From contig JAMPHF010000002.1 of the NCBI GenBank assembly GCA_023663525.1, forward strand, positions 409,898-467,086: DNA of 57,189 nucleotides, read 5' to 3'. The notes beneath the pieces are model-generated. The model was not told the origin of the DNA, searched no databases, and worked only from the letters and a program-made list of their open reading frames with translations. A program made the position numbers and the translations under genes. Positions 21,674 through 25,438 of the stretch are shown in pieces. This DNA is from Bacteroides sp. (GTDB lineage: Bacteria > Bacteroidota > Bacteroidia > Bacteroidales > Muribaculaceae). Positions within the stretch are counted from its first letter, which is position 1, and each line of letters opens with the position of its first letter.

Positions 21674-21768
21674 TCATTCATGATATAACAATAGGTCGGT
21701 AAAAAATTAAGCGACATCCCCCAAATAGGAGGCTATCATATGGTCAAATTTATTCAAAATATTGTCAT

Positions 21769-22033
21769 TTATACCGTTGTTACGGCATATTCAAGGATGC
21801 GGAGTGCAAATTCCGTGTCCGAGATGGCATTTTTGAGTTGGCCGACAGAGGTCTTAGGGAAATATCGGTCAATTTCGGTTTGCAACAGCCACTGTTCGGT
21901 GGGGTAATATTTCAGCACACAATTGGATTGAAGTCTGCTCACAAGGGTGAATCCAAGCTCAATCATTTTATCGGCAAAGGGTCTTCGGGCGAAGTAGGAA
22001 TCAGCCGCCATAATCTTGGAGACTGCTTGCAGG
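21769..22033 (-). pseudogene. Truncated transposase fragment, DDE type
   Basis: The minus strand encodes about 88 residues without a proper start: LLQAVSKIMAADSYFARRPF and later LGFTLVSRLQSNCVLKY. This looks like the segment around the second catalytic Asp (ADSYF) of IS4-like DDE transposases. The N-terminal part is missing, cut off where the 80-nt repeat begins, and the C-terminal DDE Glu region is absent too. It is inactive debris. The exact IS family is uncertain. Confidence 0.6.
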
Positions 22034-22038
22034 AGTCC

Positions 22039-22118
22039 AATCTCATGAGATTGGATGCGAACAATCTAACTTCCTAAATTCTTAAACAGCCTCAAATGTT
22101 AACTAATTAAAATATTAA
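22039..22118. repeat. 80-nt sequence shared with the MITE (copy 1)
   Basis: Matches 24278-24357 at 72 of 80 positions with no gaps. The left edge contains the perfect 18-nt palindrome CCAATCTCATGAGATTGG (22037-22054). It abuts the truncated transposase, linking the MITE family with that insertion sequence or marking a nested insertion. Confidence 0.8.
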
Positions 22119-22227
22119 AGATTGAGGCGCAAGACAGATGAATAGTGTGAACTCTACACATTATTATATATTAATTAGTGCTTTGATAGAAAAATGTTAG
22201 GAATTTTTGAAAATTTATATCAAAAGT

Positions 22228-22258
22228 TTTGTGAAAATAAAAATAATATGTAAATTTG
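22228..22258 (+). promoter_or_regulatory. Promoter of the glnK-amtB leader
   Basis: TTTG at 22228-22231, 19 nt, TAAATTTG at 22251-22258: an exact match to the Bacteroidetes promoter. Transcription should start near 22263, about 24 nt before the leader-peptide ATG. Confidence 0.8.
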
Positions 22259-22286
22259 CCACTATAAAACTAAATATAAAAGAAAA

Positions 22287-22406
22287 ATGATAGCGATTGC
22301 AACATATTTTGCCCAGCAGCAAGTGCAGCAGCAATACTTGGACAATGTACAAGTAAGATTGTCTGTGTGCATATGCCGCACCAGTCCGGCAAAAGACATG
22401 TTATAG
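22287..22406 (+). CDS. Glutamine-rich leader peptide (candidate attenuator)
   Basis: A 39-codon ORF, too short for routine gene calling: MIAIATYFAQQQVQQQYLDN, then further residues ending in AKDML and TAG. Seven codons are Gln: six within residues 10-16 (CAG CAG CAA GTG CAG CAG CAA) and one at residue 22. It starts about 24 nt after the predicted transcription start, and an intrinsic terminator follows 31 nt after its stop, ahead of the P-II/ammonium-transporter operon. That is the layout of an amino-acid leader peptide; glutamine is the central nitrogen signal. Translation is inferred, not shown. Confidence 0.65.
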   Translation: MIAIATYFAQQQVQQQYLDNVQVRLSVCICRTSPAKDML

Positions 22407-22484
22407 GACATATGAATTAAAACTCATGATTTTTTTGAGAGAGGCTGGTTTCCTGAAAGGGAGATTGGCCTCTCTCGCTTTTTT
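22374..22484 (+). promoter_or_regulatory. Attenuator with alternative hairpins ahead of glnK
   Basis: Three competing pairings are visible. A pause hairpin, TGCCG 22374-22378 with CGGCA 22387-22391. A possible antiterminator, ACCAGTCC 22380-22387 with GGCTGGT 22443-22449 (7 pairs, one bulged T). A terminator, 22437-22445 with 22468-22476. The antiterminator overlaps the 5' arm of the terminator and the pause hairpin. A ribosome stalled at the Gln codons would leave the antiterminator strand free; one at the stop codon (22404-22406) would partly cover it. Hand-drawn pairing only. Confidence 0.55.
22437..22484 (+). terminator. Intrinsic terminator between leader peptide and glnK
   Basis: A perfect 9-bp stem, GAGAGAGGC (22437-22445) with GCCTCTCTC (22468-22476). 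An inner 5-bp stem (22450-22454 with 22458-22462) sits in the loop, and GCTTTTTTC follows. A strong terminator here is unexpected unless it is conditional, since the operon it precedes has no other obvious promoter box. Confidence 0.85.
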
Positions 22485-22537
22485 CAAGAGTTTGCCGACA
22501 TAAGGATGCATCAATAATACATAAAGCCTCAACAAGG

Positions 22538-22611
22538 ACAATTACTAAGGTAGAAAAAACAATCACTAAGGTAGAAAAGACATTTAATAAGGTAAAAAAT
22601 TTTAACAGGTA
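22538..22611. repeat. Tandem 21-bp repeats before glnK
   Basis: Three units start at 22538, 22559 and 22580 with an exact 21-bp period; each contains AAGGTA followed by A-rich sequence. A shorter fourth copy (CAGGTAAAAAA) comes 17 bp later, ending 7 nt before the glnK ATG. The period equals two helical turns. No in-frame start codon serves it, so it is not obviously coding. Confidence 0.8.
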
Positions 22612-22617
22612 AAAAAG

Positions 22618-22965
22618 ATGAAAAAGATTGAAGCAATCATCCGAAAGACAAAGTTTGATGAGCTCAAGGCTGCGCTGCTCGAGTCGGACATCAACTGGTT
22701 TGAGTATCACGATGTGCATGGCATAGGGCAGTCGCGTCAGGAGCGGGTGTATCGTGGCGTGCAGTATAGCACGGATGTGATAGAGCGTGTGCACCTGTCG
22801 ATAGTGTGTCGCGACCAGTTTGTTGAGCCGACCGTCAAGGTGATACTCGACATAGCCCACACCGGCGAGGTGGGCGACGGACGTATCTTTATAAGTGAGA
22901 TACTCGACGTCTACAGCATACGCACCGCCCGCAATGGCGAGGAGGTGATAGCTAACAAGCTCTAA
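22618..22965 (+). CDS. glnK: Nitrogen regulatory protein P-II (GlnK type)
   Basis: A 115-residue P-II signal protein, which senses 2-oxoglutarate and ATP/ADP and controls AmtB. The N-terminus KKIEAIIRKTKFDELKAAL is typical. The T-loop region IGQSRQERVYRGVQY contains Tyr45 and Tyr50; Tyr50 aligns with the residue that is uridylylated (Tyr51) in enterobacterial P-II. The B-loop segment is HTGEVGDGRIFI (about residues 81-92). The amtB ATG lies 27 nt after the stop, the usual pairing. Whether this Tyr is modified is unknown; no uridylyltransferase is in the window. Confidence 0.95.
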   Translation: MKKIEAIIRKTKFDELKAALLESDINWFEYHDVHGIGQSRQERVYRGVQYSTDVIERVHLSIVCRDQFVEPTVKVILDIAHTGEVGDGRIFISEILDVYSIRTARNGEEVIANKL

Positions 22966-22992: not shown

Positions 22993-24201
22993 ATGGAAAC
23001 AAATTTTTTAGGTTCGGTAAGTGGGATAGATACATTATGGGTGATGCTCGGTGCGATATTGGTGTTCTGGATGCAGCCCGGATTTGCTCTTGTCGAGGCA
23101 GGACTGACACGCTCGAAAAACACGGCCAATATTCTGATGAAGAATTTCTGCGACTTCATGTGTGGGACGGTGCTCTTCTGGATAATCGGTTTTTCGATAA
23201 TGTTCGGATCGGGCAACGGTTTCATCGGTTGGGATGGATTTTTTGCCATGAGTAATTTTGGCAATGACAATCTGCCGCCGGCAGCATTCTTTATCTTCCA
23301 GACTATGTTTTGCGCCACTACGGCTACCATAGTCAGTGGAGCTATGGCTGAGAGGACGAAATTTTCGATGTATCTTCTCTACTCGATATTGATTTCAGCT
23401 ATCATTTATCCTATCTCAGGCCATTGGGGCTGGGGTGGCGGATGGCTCTCCGAGATGGGATTTCATGATTTTGCCGGTTCGACCATAGTTCATGCCTGCG
23501 GCGGTACGCTCGCGCTTGCGGGTGCCATAGTGTTGGGACCACGTATCGGTAAGTATGACCGTAACAGAAATAGCCGTGCCATACCGGGACATAATCTCAC
23601 TATCTGTGCTCTTGGAGTGTTCTGCCTGTGGGTAGGATGGTTTGGGTTTAATCCTTGCTCAACTTTGTCGCTTACGGGCGAGGGTGCGTTTGTGGCCTCG
23701 CATGTGTTCATCACCACTAATATGGCAGCTGCGACGGGTGGATTGGCTGCATTGGCTTATACATGGATTGTCGATGGTAAGCCGTCGCTGTCGATGGTGT
23801 GCAATGGTGTGCTGGCCGGGCTTGTGGGCATAACTGCCGGTTGTGATTGTGTGCCTGTATGGGCTGCTGCTCTTATAGGTGTGATAGTGTCGGTAGTGAT
23901 GTGCTGGTCGGTATCGTTTCTCGACAAGAAGCTTAAGGTTGATGATCCCGTGGGCGCAGTAAGCGTGCATGGTGTAGGGGGTGTGGTAGGCACATTGCTC
24001 ACCGGAGTGTTTGCCTTTGAGGATGCCGGAGTGTCGCTCGGTGTGCAGGCTCTCGGTGCGCTCTCGATTGTGGCTTATGCTTTTGTGACCGGTATGTTAA
24101 TCTTTGTGACTATCAATAAGACTCTCGGATTGCGTTGCGGTCGACGCGAGGAGGAGGAAGGCCTCGATGTCTATGAGCATGGAGAGTCGTGCTATAATTA
24201 G
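22993..24201 (+). CDS. amtB: Ammonium transporter AmtB
   Basis: AmtB/Amt-family ammonium channel, 402 residues from METNFLGSVSGID; a TTG-started extension to 22966 would abut glnK and lacks support. About eleven membrane segments are visible. Signatures are WMQPGFALVEAGLTRSKN (about residues 26-43), STIVHACGGTLALAGAIVLG (about 165-184, first pore His) and VSVHGVGGVVGTLLTGVFA (about 324-342, second pore His). The short cytoplasmic tail (GRREEEEGLDVYEHGES) can meet GlnK. A MITE sits 12 nt after the stop. Confidence 0.97.
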   Translation: METNFLGSVSGIDTLWVMLGAILVFWMQPGFALVEAGLTRSKNTANILMKNFCDFMCGTVLFWIIGFSIMFGSGNGFIGWDGFFAMSNFGNDNLPPAAFFIFQTMFCATTATIVSGAMAERTKFSMYLLYSILISAIIYPISGHWGWGGGWLSEMGFHDFAGSTIVHACGGTLALAGAIVLGPRIGKYDRNRNSRAIPGHNLTICALGVFCLWVGWFGFNPCSTLSLTGEGAFVASHVFITTNMAAATGGLAALAYTWIVDGKPSLSMVCNGVLAGLVGITAGCDCVPVWAAALIGVIVSVVMCWSVSFLDKKLKVDDPVGAVSVHGVGGVVGTLLTGVFAFEDAGVSLGVQALGALSIVAYAFVTGMLIFVTINKTLGLRCGRREEEEGLDVYEHGESCYN

Positions 24202-24213
24202 TTTAGGAGTTTA

Positions 24214-24539
24214 AGAGGTTATTTAAAAATAAATGTGAAAGCCAGAGTCCTTATCGCGTGCGCTTTGCTCCGCAAGGAATCTCATGAGATTGGATGCGAA
24301 CAATGTAACTTCCTCAATTTCTAATCAGCCTCAAATGTTAACTAAATAAAACACTAAGGAATGAATCGCCTCATGGATGTCTTTCTGGCTAAATTATCCT
24401 TTCATCGGCTTGCCGCTTTCGAGCTTGATGAGAAAGAATCATCGGTCACATAGCCACGGCTATGCTCCATCTGATTAAGAATAACTTATCTCAAAAATCC
24501 ATCCACTCTGGCTTTCACATTTATTTTTAAACAACCTCT
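24214..24539. mobile_element. MITE with 35-bp terminal inverted repeats
   Basis: The ends 24214-24248 and 24505-24539 are inverted repeats matching at 34 of 35 positions (outer end AGAGGTT, inner end GCCAGAGT). No protein is encoded between them. GAGTTTA occurs immediately left (24207-24213) and 2 nt right (24542-24548), a probable target duplication. An internal 80-nt block is shared with 22039-22118, next to a truncated transposase. All this fits a non-autonomous element moved in trans. Confidence 0.85.
24278..24357. repeat. 80-nt sequence shared with 22 kb (copy 2)
   Basis: Internal part of the MITE; 72 of 80 positions match 22039-22118. It carries the palindromic core AATCTCATGAGATT. Confidence 0.8.
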
Positions 24540-24602: not shown

Positions 24603-25310
24603 ATGAAAAATATATGTTGCTTAATACTGTCCATAGTGTGTATGATTTCTGCGATGAGTCTGTCGGCTCAGGATAAGGTTGAGGCTGAGATTAAGGCCGA
24701 TTTCGTGAGTCAGTATATATGGCGCGGTCAGGATATGGGCGATTTTTCGTTGCAGCCTACCTTAGGGGTGGCATGGCGAGGATTGTCGCTCACGGCCTGG
24801 GGGAGCACGGGGATTTCTGACTCGGACGATACCAGGGAGTTTGACCTCACGCTGGGCTATAGCATTGGAGGGTTGAGCTTTGGGGTCACCGATTATTGGT
24901 TTGACACTCCCAACTCGAAATATTTCGTATATGCTGCCCATCGCACCTCGCATGTGTTTGAGGCCAATGTAGGTTATGATTTCGGCCCGGTGTCGATAGG
25001 ATGGTACACCAATTTTGCGGGCAACGACGGGGTGACTCGCAGCGGCAAGCGTGCCTATTCATCGTATGTCGAGGTGTCGGCACCGTTCAGTCTCGGCGGT
25101 CTATCGTGGTGTGCCACGCTCGGGGCGGTGCCGTATGCGACAAGTTTCTATGCCGACGTCAACGGTTTTGCGGTGGTCAACGCGTCGCTCTCGGCCACGT
25201 ATGACATTAAGGTGACCGACTCGTTTAGCATACCTATCTTTGCAACCATCAATACTAATCCCTGCACGCAGAAGGCTTTCTTCGTGGCCGGATTCACCCT
25301 GCGGCCATAG
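24603..25310 (+). CDS. Putative porin of the TorF/Gcw_chp type
   Basis: A 235-residue predicted outer-membrane beta-barrel protein. The signal peptide ends near LSAQ (MKNICCLILSIVCMISAMS then LSAQDK). The mature start, DFVSQYIWRGQDMGDFSLQP, is the hallmark of the Gcw_chp/TorF family, and the rest alternates in strand-like fashion and ends with an aromatic-rich strand (VAGFTLRP). Such proteins often sit by amtB-glnK in Bacteroidetes, so diffusion of nitrogen compounds across the outer membrane is a fair inference. A MITE separates it from amtB. Confidence 0.82.
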   Translation: MKNICCLILSIVCMISAMSLSAQDKVEAEIKADFVSQYIWRGQDMGDFSLQPTLGVAWRGLSLTAWGSTGISDSDDTREFDLTLGYSIGGLSFGVTDYWFDTPNSKYFVYAAHRTSHVFEANVGYDFGPVSIGWYTNFAGNDGVTRSGKRAYSSYVEVSAPFSLGGLSWCATLGAVPYATSFYADVNGFAVVNASLSATYDIKVTDSFSIPIFATINTNPCTQKAFFVAGFTLRP

Positions 25311-25438
25311 GGAATTAGATACCTAAGAACTAAAGGTAAGATACATAAGGACAAAAGTATAAGATACAAAAGGACAAAAGCTCCAAAAGAAACATAAGTC
25401 TTTTAATTGCTAATTACTATTGGTATAATGATGCAACA

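Follow-up and report, generated by a model that had tools for sequence, protein, structure and literature searches.

A predicted glutamine-reading leader-peptide attenuator ahead of glnK-amtB in a Bacteroides sp. of the Muribaculaceae, and similar elements ahead of nitrogen genes in other Bacteroidales

The window, that is, the whole stretch of 57,189 nucleotides that was analyzed, contains the genes for a P-II protein (glnK) and an ammonium channel (amtB), which are preceded by a short open reading frame (ORF) rich in glutamine codons and by a predicted intrinsic terminator. The features of this locus, in window coordinates, are:

22228..22258, + strand: promoter motif of the Bacteroidetes type, TTTG-N19-TAAATTTG (from the sequence)
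22287..22406, + strand: leader ORF of 39 codons with QQQVQQQ at codons 10-16 and Q at codon 22 (from the sequence and the homologous leaders of loci rL003 and rL004)
22314..22334, + strand: presumed control codons CAG CAG CAA GTG CAG CAG CAA (the Gln run is kept in both relatives)
22374..22391, + strand: putative hairpin P1, TGCCG-CACCAGTC-CGGCA, with the antiterminator segment as its loop (from the sequence, with moderate support from similar hairpins in many of 28 elements)
22380..22386, + strand: segment 2, ACCAGTC, the complement of the terminator 5' arm (from pairing over 26 chosen elements)
22437..22484, + strand: predicted intrinsic terminator, hairpin 22437-22476 and T6 22479-22484 (from folding, a terminator scan and the sequence)
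22443..22449, + strand: segment 3, GGCTGGT, within the terminator 5' arm (from the sequence and pairing conservation)
22538..22600, + strand: three 21-nt tandem repeats (ACAATTACTAAGGTAGAAAAA) in the spacer between the terminator and glnK (from repeat comparison; not seen in rL003 and rL004)
22618..22965, + strand: glnK, P-II protein, the first gene past the element (Pfam PF00543)
22993..24201, + strand: amtB, ammonium channel (Pfam PF00909, TIGR00836)
24603..25310, + strand: porin-like protein, a candidate member of the same transcript, whose homologue in some relatives lies between the leader and glnK (55% identical, over 222 positions, to the porin-like protein of locus L175)

When the sequence was re-read, the promoter, the leader ORF, the terminator and glnK were found to the base where an earlier note on this DNA had placed them, the leader stop codon TAG occupying 22404-22406 and the glnK ATG lying at 22618. 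The identification of glnK and amtB in that note is confirmed by Pfam (P-II, E-value 1.4e-19, and Ammonium_transp, E-value 1.7e-126, respectively); the porin-like protein of the window has no Pfam or NCBIfam match. The terminator hairpin is predicted by folding to comprise 18 pairs and a 4-nt loop (-28.9 kcal/mol), and the 9-bp perfect stem plus T6 described earlier corresponds to its nine outer pairs, all of them perfect, and to the T residues at 22479-22484. A terminator scan of positions 22100-22700 yielded three overlapping sites, compared to a mean of 0.3 in shuffled sequences. Between the terminator and glnK, the window contains no exact copy of the TAnnTTTG box, and Rfam 15, at gathering scores, produced no matches in the window or in nine element-bearing loci.

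The predicted leader peptide of the window, MIAIATYFAQQQVQQQYLDNVQVRLSVCICRTSPAKDML, carries Gln at codons 10-12, 14-16 and 22. When the 400 nt ahead of glnK were dinucleotide-shuffled 2000 times, no ATG-initiated ORF had six Gln within eight residues, and the maximum was four. Genes for a GlnK of this kind are rare in the family of the window, being present in one of the 27 genomes of the genus and in 10 of the 397 sampled genomes of the family (E ≤ 0.001). Three of these 10 family loci, namely, that of the window and those of its two closest relatives, at 90% identity, possess a Gln-rich leader; the Gln runs read QQQVQQQ, QQQGQQQ and QQGIQQQ, and each leader is flanked by a -7 box on its 5' side and a strong hairpin on its 3' side. 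The leader peptides of the relatives, rL003 and rL004, are MTTRFAYFCQQQGQQQGLNNVQVRLLVYGRTSPAKTEL and MNFYYNANRQQGIQQQNLDIVQVGFSVGACHDGWTLEW, and in a three-way alignment with the window the leader and the hairpin are better kept than the spacer to glnK. In the seven other glnK loci of the family, at 53-59% identity, a leader was not found within 450 nt. In the window and its relatives, as in attenuators generally, a short leader ORF repeats the codons of the pathway's end product.

Leaders such as LNNNQQQNNQNQNNNQ precede glnK-amtB in a second family of Bacteroidales, that of the genome of L042, in which 197 of the 399 sampled genomes contain a glnK match. Among the 30 nearest loci of this family, 26 have a leader, located within 450 nt of glnK in 23 cases and, in three, ahead of a porin-like gene that itself precedes glnK, 1.07-1.23 kb upstream of the latter. 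Over all loci, the leader-porin order is seen in L174, L175, L115 and L043. Forty more distant loci of the same family, chosen down the ranking, include seven with a leader and 33 with none within 450 nt. In a named collection of 80 glnK loci, an Asn/Gln-rich leader, e.g. MFIGFKNITAVQLNNNQQQNNQNQNNNQVPMVIPFDRSGM, was found within 450 nt in four (L037, L039, L042 and L044), all from metagenome-assembled genomes of uncultured Bacteroidales, two of which are named as buffalo rumen; L042 and L044 are counted both here and among the 30 nearest loci. No leader was found within 450 nt in the other 76, two of which offered too little sequence and one of which has a leader ahead of a porin. Most of the sampled glnK loci elsewhere, then, lack a leader directly upstream. 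The comparison that the earlier note had proposed, a search of related glnK upstream regions for a Gln-rich ORF before a terminator, accordingly came out positive, with leaders in 3 of 3 close loci (the window being one of them), 26 of 30, 7 of 40 and 4 of 80.

The 35 glnK leaders assembled from these loci, 33 of them distinct, were picked for their Asn/Gln content, and the distinct ones contain 230 Gln and 283 Asn, 513 in all, among 1292 residues. At least six Gln/Asn in 10 residues occur on the sense strand of 39 of 160 glnK loci (a set that includes four duplicates), on the antisense strand of none of the 160, and in two of 800 shuffled sequences. Across an alignment of 22 leaders, invariance is limited to the first Met, with two Gln columns coming close to it. 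For seven of the 35 leaders (L105, rL101, rL104, rL106-rL108 and rL113), the longest ATG frame begins further upstream, and the inner ATG that matches related leaders was used. All 35 have a TAnnTTTG -7 box 26-71 nt ahead of the start codon, compared to 0.6 expected in the whole set from sequence further upstream; the box also lies within 90 nt of the start in all 23 leaders checked from non-glnK contexts. The codon AAT accounts for 224 of the 283 Asn positions of the leaders, whereas AAC accounts for 275 of 326 in glnK and amtB of the same loci; for Gln, CAG is used in 220 of 230 leader positions versus 152 of 177 in the two genes. Theory of attenuators holds that the choice of control codon matters (passages of PMC1183508), and the link of the leader codon choice to attenuation is here only a correlation.

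A terminator-like hairpin is predicted 3' of the stop codon in all 35 glnK leaders, so that each shows the predicted intrinsic terminator that an attenuator includes; several, among them L151, L152, rL154 and rL004, have an imperfect U-tract. Nearly all glnK leaders also have, near their end, a segment of the ACCAGUC type, often in a hairpin loop, that is complementary to the terminator 5' arm (GGCUGGU type). Over 26 elements, the 7-bp helix of segments 2 and 3 is paired in 97.8% of 182 cells, compared to 4.9-52.2% in shifted registers; because these elements were selected for carrying motifs like ACCAGUC and GGCUGGU, the high pairing is partly built in. The variation consists of U-G/U-A/C-G changes plus two A-U to G-C double changes, and both doubly changed cells stem from two related loci. 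Column shuffles of the set were 97.0% paired, with 45 of 500 as high as the real alignment, little worse than the latter because four of the pairs never vary. Pair counts were made without alignment A1, in which MAFFT set segment 2 of the L042-type leaders (L042, L044 and L096-L114) two columns off; these leaders were excluded from alignment A3 and, except for L044, from A4, and rL004 was excluded from A3, A4 and the 26-element count. In rL004, which lacks ACCAGUC, another segment of the leader pairs with the terminator arm (14 bp including G-U, -17.1 kcal/mol), a pairing matched by 0.8% of 500 shuffles.

The proposal that competing pairings can be drawn at 22374-22476 holds in that the pairing of ACCAGTC (22380-22386) with GGCTGGT (22443-22449) exists and is conserved; it is short, and in the window alone, where 39% of 300 shuffles are equally good, it is no better than chance, so that its support is the conservation. 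A match of segments 2 and 3 better than shuffles at the 5% level was obtained for 16 of 28 glnK elements, the window not being among them. In nested minimum-energy folds without the 3' arm of the terminator, the pairing appears in five of 15 elements, including the window, and most of the others give P1-like hairpins. An alternative pairing that would exclude the terminator is indicated by the conservation of segments 2 and 3, with a mixed folding preference. The predicted antiterminator of the window (7 bp, -10.7 kcal/mol) is far weaker than the terminator (-28.9 kcal/mol), so that capture of segment 3 would have to be kinetic.

Hairpins similar to P1, with ACCAGUC in the loop, appear to occur in many elements. 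In a fixed register, 61.3% of the cells of the P1 stem are paired, there is no single register, and the register shifted by one shows more covariation than the fixed one (0.256 versus 0.200), so that P1 is only moderately supported. In shuffling tests of 28 single sequences, an equally good fold was reached by no more than 4% of the shuffles in 17; L002 and L003 were anchored 5 nt too far 3' in this set, and their values are not used. Segment 2 lies in differing reading frames of the leader or past its stop codon. As read by eye, the stop is located from 4 nt ahead of segment 2 to 29 nt past it, the distance being 17 nt in the window and the gltB leaders being an outlier; in most cases, therefore, a terminating ribosome would cover segment 2 or would have just opened it.

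Dozens of other Bacteroidales genomes also have frames rich in Gln and Asn ahead of nitrogen genes, and these are predicted to permit transcription only at a low supply of the two amino acids. We searched for such elements with two covariance models, R1 and R2. R1, built from 13 glnK elements, was applied to the second family (251 genomes) and the order (295 genomes); R2, built from 26 elements, was applied to the family of the window (24 genomes), family f19 (20 genomes), the class (277 genomes) and the 80 named glnK loci. Both models begin mostly 3' of the Gln/Asn codons, so that the presence of an Asn/Gln-rich ORF ahead of a match is a near-blind test, with part of the elements present in the training alignments. 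At E ≤ 1e-5, such an ORF precedes all 24 R1 matches in the second family (five of them being those of rL154 and of the gltB leaders L194-L197) and all nine R2 matches in f19; among the weaker matches with loci, the counts are 5 of 11 and 7 of 21, respectively. At the same threshold, the order search with R1 gave two matches, one of them, the window itself, behind an Asn/Gln-rich ORF, and the class search with R2 gave three, none behind such an ORF. Matches at E ≤ 1e-4 were obtained in 18 of the 277 class genomes, that of the window included, and none of the 19 new loci from this search has an Asn/Gln-rich ORF ending at the match; L303, where a short Gln-rich ORF ends 38 nt ahead of the match, was not counted as an element. 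Among the 80 named loci, R2 recovered five elements in L037, L039, L042 and L044 (two in the last) and one in L043 (3.5e-4, ahead of a porin), and we did not accept eight weaker matches as elements. In the genome of the window, R2 found the one element and no second copy at E ≤ 0.1. Among the matches weaker than about 1e-5, we regard L183, L184, L186, L188, L190, L230, L274, L278, L282, L283, L285, L287, L288, L291 and L292 as real elements; many others were judged on visual inspection to be ordinary gene-end terminators, e.g. behind ribosomal protein genes, and were not counted.

The genes that follow the predicted elements in contexts other than glnK itself, as read by eye, are:

glutamate synthase large subunit (gltB): L194-L197, L200
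GlmS (glmS): L201-L205
asparagine synthetase B (asnB): L206, L207
CTP synthase (pyrG): L208
circularly permuted ATP-grasp protein: L177
porin preceding glnK: L174, L175, L043
amtB alone: L264-L267, L269-L271, L281
type III glutamine synthetase: L274, L278, L282, L283, L285, L287, L291, L292
porin-like gene: L288

One representative each of GltB, GlmS, AsnB, PyrG, type III glutamine synthetase, the ATP-grasp protein and AmtB was confirmed by Pfam or NCBIfam; neither collection gave a match for the porin-like proteins behind elements. In L177 (genome G582), a Gln/Asn/His leader with the element precedes the gene for the circularly permuted ATP-grasp protein, possibly a sign that this protein family has a nitrogen-related function. 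In L206 and L207, a second hairpin, GGCTGG...CCAGCC, lies between the leader terminator and asnB and is possibly a tandem terminator. Beyond the view of the earlier note lay the use of Asn alongside Gln in the leaders, the antiterminator segment often being located in a hairpin loop, and the recurrence of the predicted element ahead of further nitrogen genes.

Taken as a whole, the comparative data make it very probable that positions 22228-22617 are a ribosome-mediated transcription attenuator that senses charged tRNA-Gln and, in the relatives, likely tRNA-Gln together with tRNA-Asn; the reading of the locus as a Gln-leader attenuator is strengthened by the retention of the leader in both closest relatives and by the similar design in the second family. 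The order of the parts along the sequence is the leader ORF with its Gln run, segment 2 (ACCAGUC), segment 3 (GGCUGGU) in the terminator 5' arm, the U-run and the gene. With ample glutamine, the ribosome would reach the stop codon and cover or unfold segment 2, the terminator would form, and the transcript would end at about 220 nt. When charged tRNA-Gln is low, the ribosome would wait in the Gln run and segment 2 would stay free, so that it could pair with segment 3 as the latter leaves the RNA polymerase; the terminator would then be blocked and glnK-amtB transcribed.

The classical ribosome-mediated amino-acid attenuators are the trp, his, leu and thr leaders of enterobacteria. T-box elements likewise read tRNA charging and act by antitermination, with the tRNA binding the RNA directly, whereas the NtrB/NtrC-PII system is a protein cascade that acts on promoters and induces glnK-amtB and glnA in nitrogen shortage. 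The Bacteroid-trp RNA has a name that suggests Trp, not Gln or Asn. With the enterobacterial attenuators (passages of PMC1183508), the elements described here share a leader ORF with control codons, an intrinsic terminator, a competing pairing and target genes of the matching pathway; they differ in combining Gln and Asn codons, in the antiterminator segment that often forms a hairpin loop, in their occurrence in Bacteroidales and in their association with several operons that encompass ammonium uptake, glutamine synthetase (GS), glutamate synthase (GOGAT) and amidotransferase genes. The histidine leader of hisS/hisZ in bacilli (passages of PMC2965389) is similarly an attenuator of the leader-peptide type that comparative genomics brought to light beyond Proteobacteria and Actinobacteria, and it differs in the amino acid, the phylum (Firmicutes) and the synthetase targets. 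The Bacteroid-trp RNA (RF01692), listed as a candidate cis-regulatory RNA of Bacteroidetes in passages of PMC2864571, gave no Rfam matches at gathering scores in the window or the nine loci, and neither did the T-box, with which the present elements would share the read-out of tRNA charging and antitermination; compared to NtrB/NtrC-PII, the element would be a cis-acting RNA with a leader peptide rather than a protein cascade. RNA-seq of B. thetaiotaomicron revealed unspecified short ORFs reminiscent of leader peptides (passages of PMC7366714), and work on Flavobacterium psychrophilum mentions hints of attenuation by leader peptides ahead of operons for amino-acid biosynthesis (passages of PMC9723704). 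In the open PMC literature, with subscription papers outside the scope, we found no attenuator that reads Gln, or Gln and Asn together, no glnK leader of this kind, no Gln or Asn leader peptides and no equivalents in Bacteroidetes, in line with the earlier note, whose author knew of no glutamine leader peptide in this phylum.

Conservation within the element is highest in segment 2 and the terminator, and one could accordingly envisage a metabolite- or protein-binding RNA, such as a glutamine riboswitch, in which the ACCAGUC hairpin and the terminator would sense directly and the ORF would be incidental. The cyanobacterial glnA RNA and Downstream-peptide motif are riboswitch candidates with much the same gene set (PII, GS, GOGAT and ammonium transporters; passages of PMC2864571). 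However, the elements described here include a leader ORF with Gln/Asn codons, the strong model matches in the second family and f19 come with Asn/Gln-rich ORFs of differing peptide sequence, segment 2 lies in differing frames of the leader or past its stop, and the window and nine loci match neither the two cyanobacterial models nor any other in Rfam, which makes such an RNA unlikely. The shifting of the frame and stop of the ORF around the same RNA motif also bears on the possibility that the leader, flanked as it is by a promoter motif and a terminator-like hairpin, is the gene of a small functional protein with its own terminator, glnK having an unrecognized promoter of its own and the association being an effect of neighborhood. 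Given that the peptides have little in common except Gln/Asn content, and that there is no exact -7 box between the window terminator and glnK, we consider this explanation less likely still. ORFs produced mechanically are common and the match of segments 2 and 3 in the window is unremarkable, as would be expected if a CAG-repeat-like stretch merely happened to lie ahead of an ordinary terminator; a chance small ORF is nevertheless extremely improbable, being contradicted by the retention of the leader in relatives, by the result of none in 2000 shuffles and by the recurrence of one design ahead of nitrogen genes of several kinds.

Because the putative attenuator is found also ahead of gltB, glmS, asnB, pyrG, type III glutamine synthetase, amtB and the porin of the glnK operon, the element family probably defines a nitrogen regulon in other genomes. 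On balance, we incline to the broader view that a large part of Bacteroidales might run a nitrogen regulon (ammonium uptake, PII, GS, GOGAT, AsnB, GlmS and CTP synthase) through a family of cis-acting leader peptides by which the ribosome reads the supply of both amide amino acids, with a 7-nt hairpin loop as the antiterminator, in place of a protein nitrogen regulator. Control of nitrogen assimilation in these bacteria is poorly known; if this view is correct, nitrogen status would be gauged by the speed of ribosomes on codons for Gln and Asn, with a single short RNA design joining ammonium uptake, GS-GOGAT and the glutamine amidotransferases. The element is compact, and the list of its targets predicts a regulon. 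In Prevotella ruminicola 23, the ammonium-responsive genes include glnK, amtB, asnB, a neighboring hypothetical gene, gltB, gltD and pyrG (passages of PMC5552732). These expression data are not used here as support because the direction is stated inconsistently, glnK, amtB and asnB being up under limiting ammonium in one passage of that report and under non-limiting ammonium in others.

The surroundings of the unit contain several repeats. A 92-nt direct repeat, 87% identical (22039-22130 and 24278-24369), flanks the leader-glnK-amtB unit; as glnK is also present in only one of the 27 genomes of the genus, the unit may have been acquired as a cassette. Just past amtB, a 35-nt inverted repeat, 97% complementary (24214-24248 and 24505-24539, 256 nt apart), is perhaps a small insertion element, and a short broken frame on the minus strand upstream of the promoter (21740-22045) may, as a guess, be a transposase remnant. 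Directly past the porin-like gene, at 25315-25380, lie three imperfect 21-nt repeats (TAAGATACATAAGGACAAAAG).
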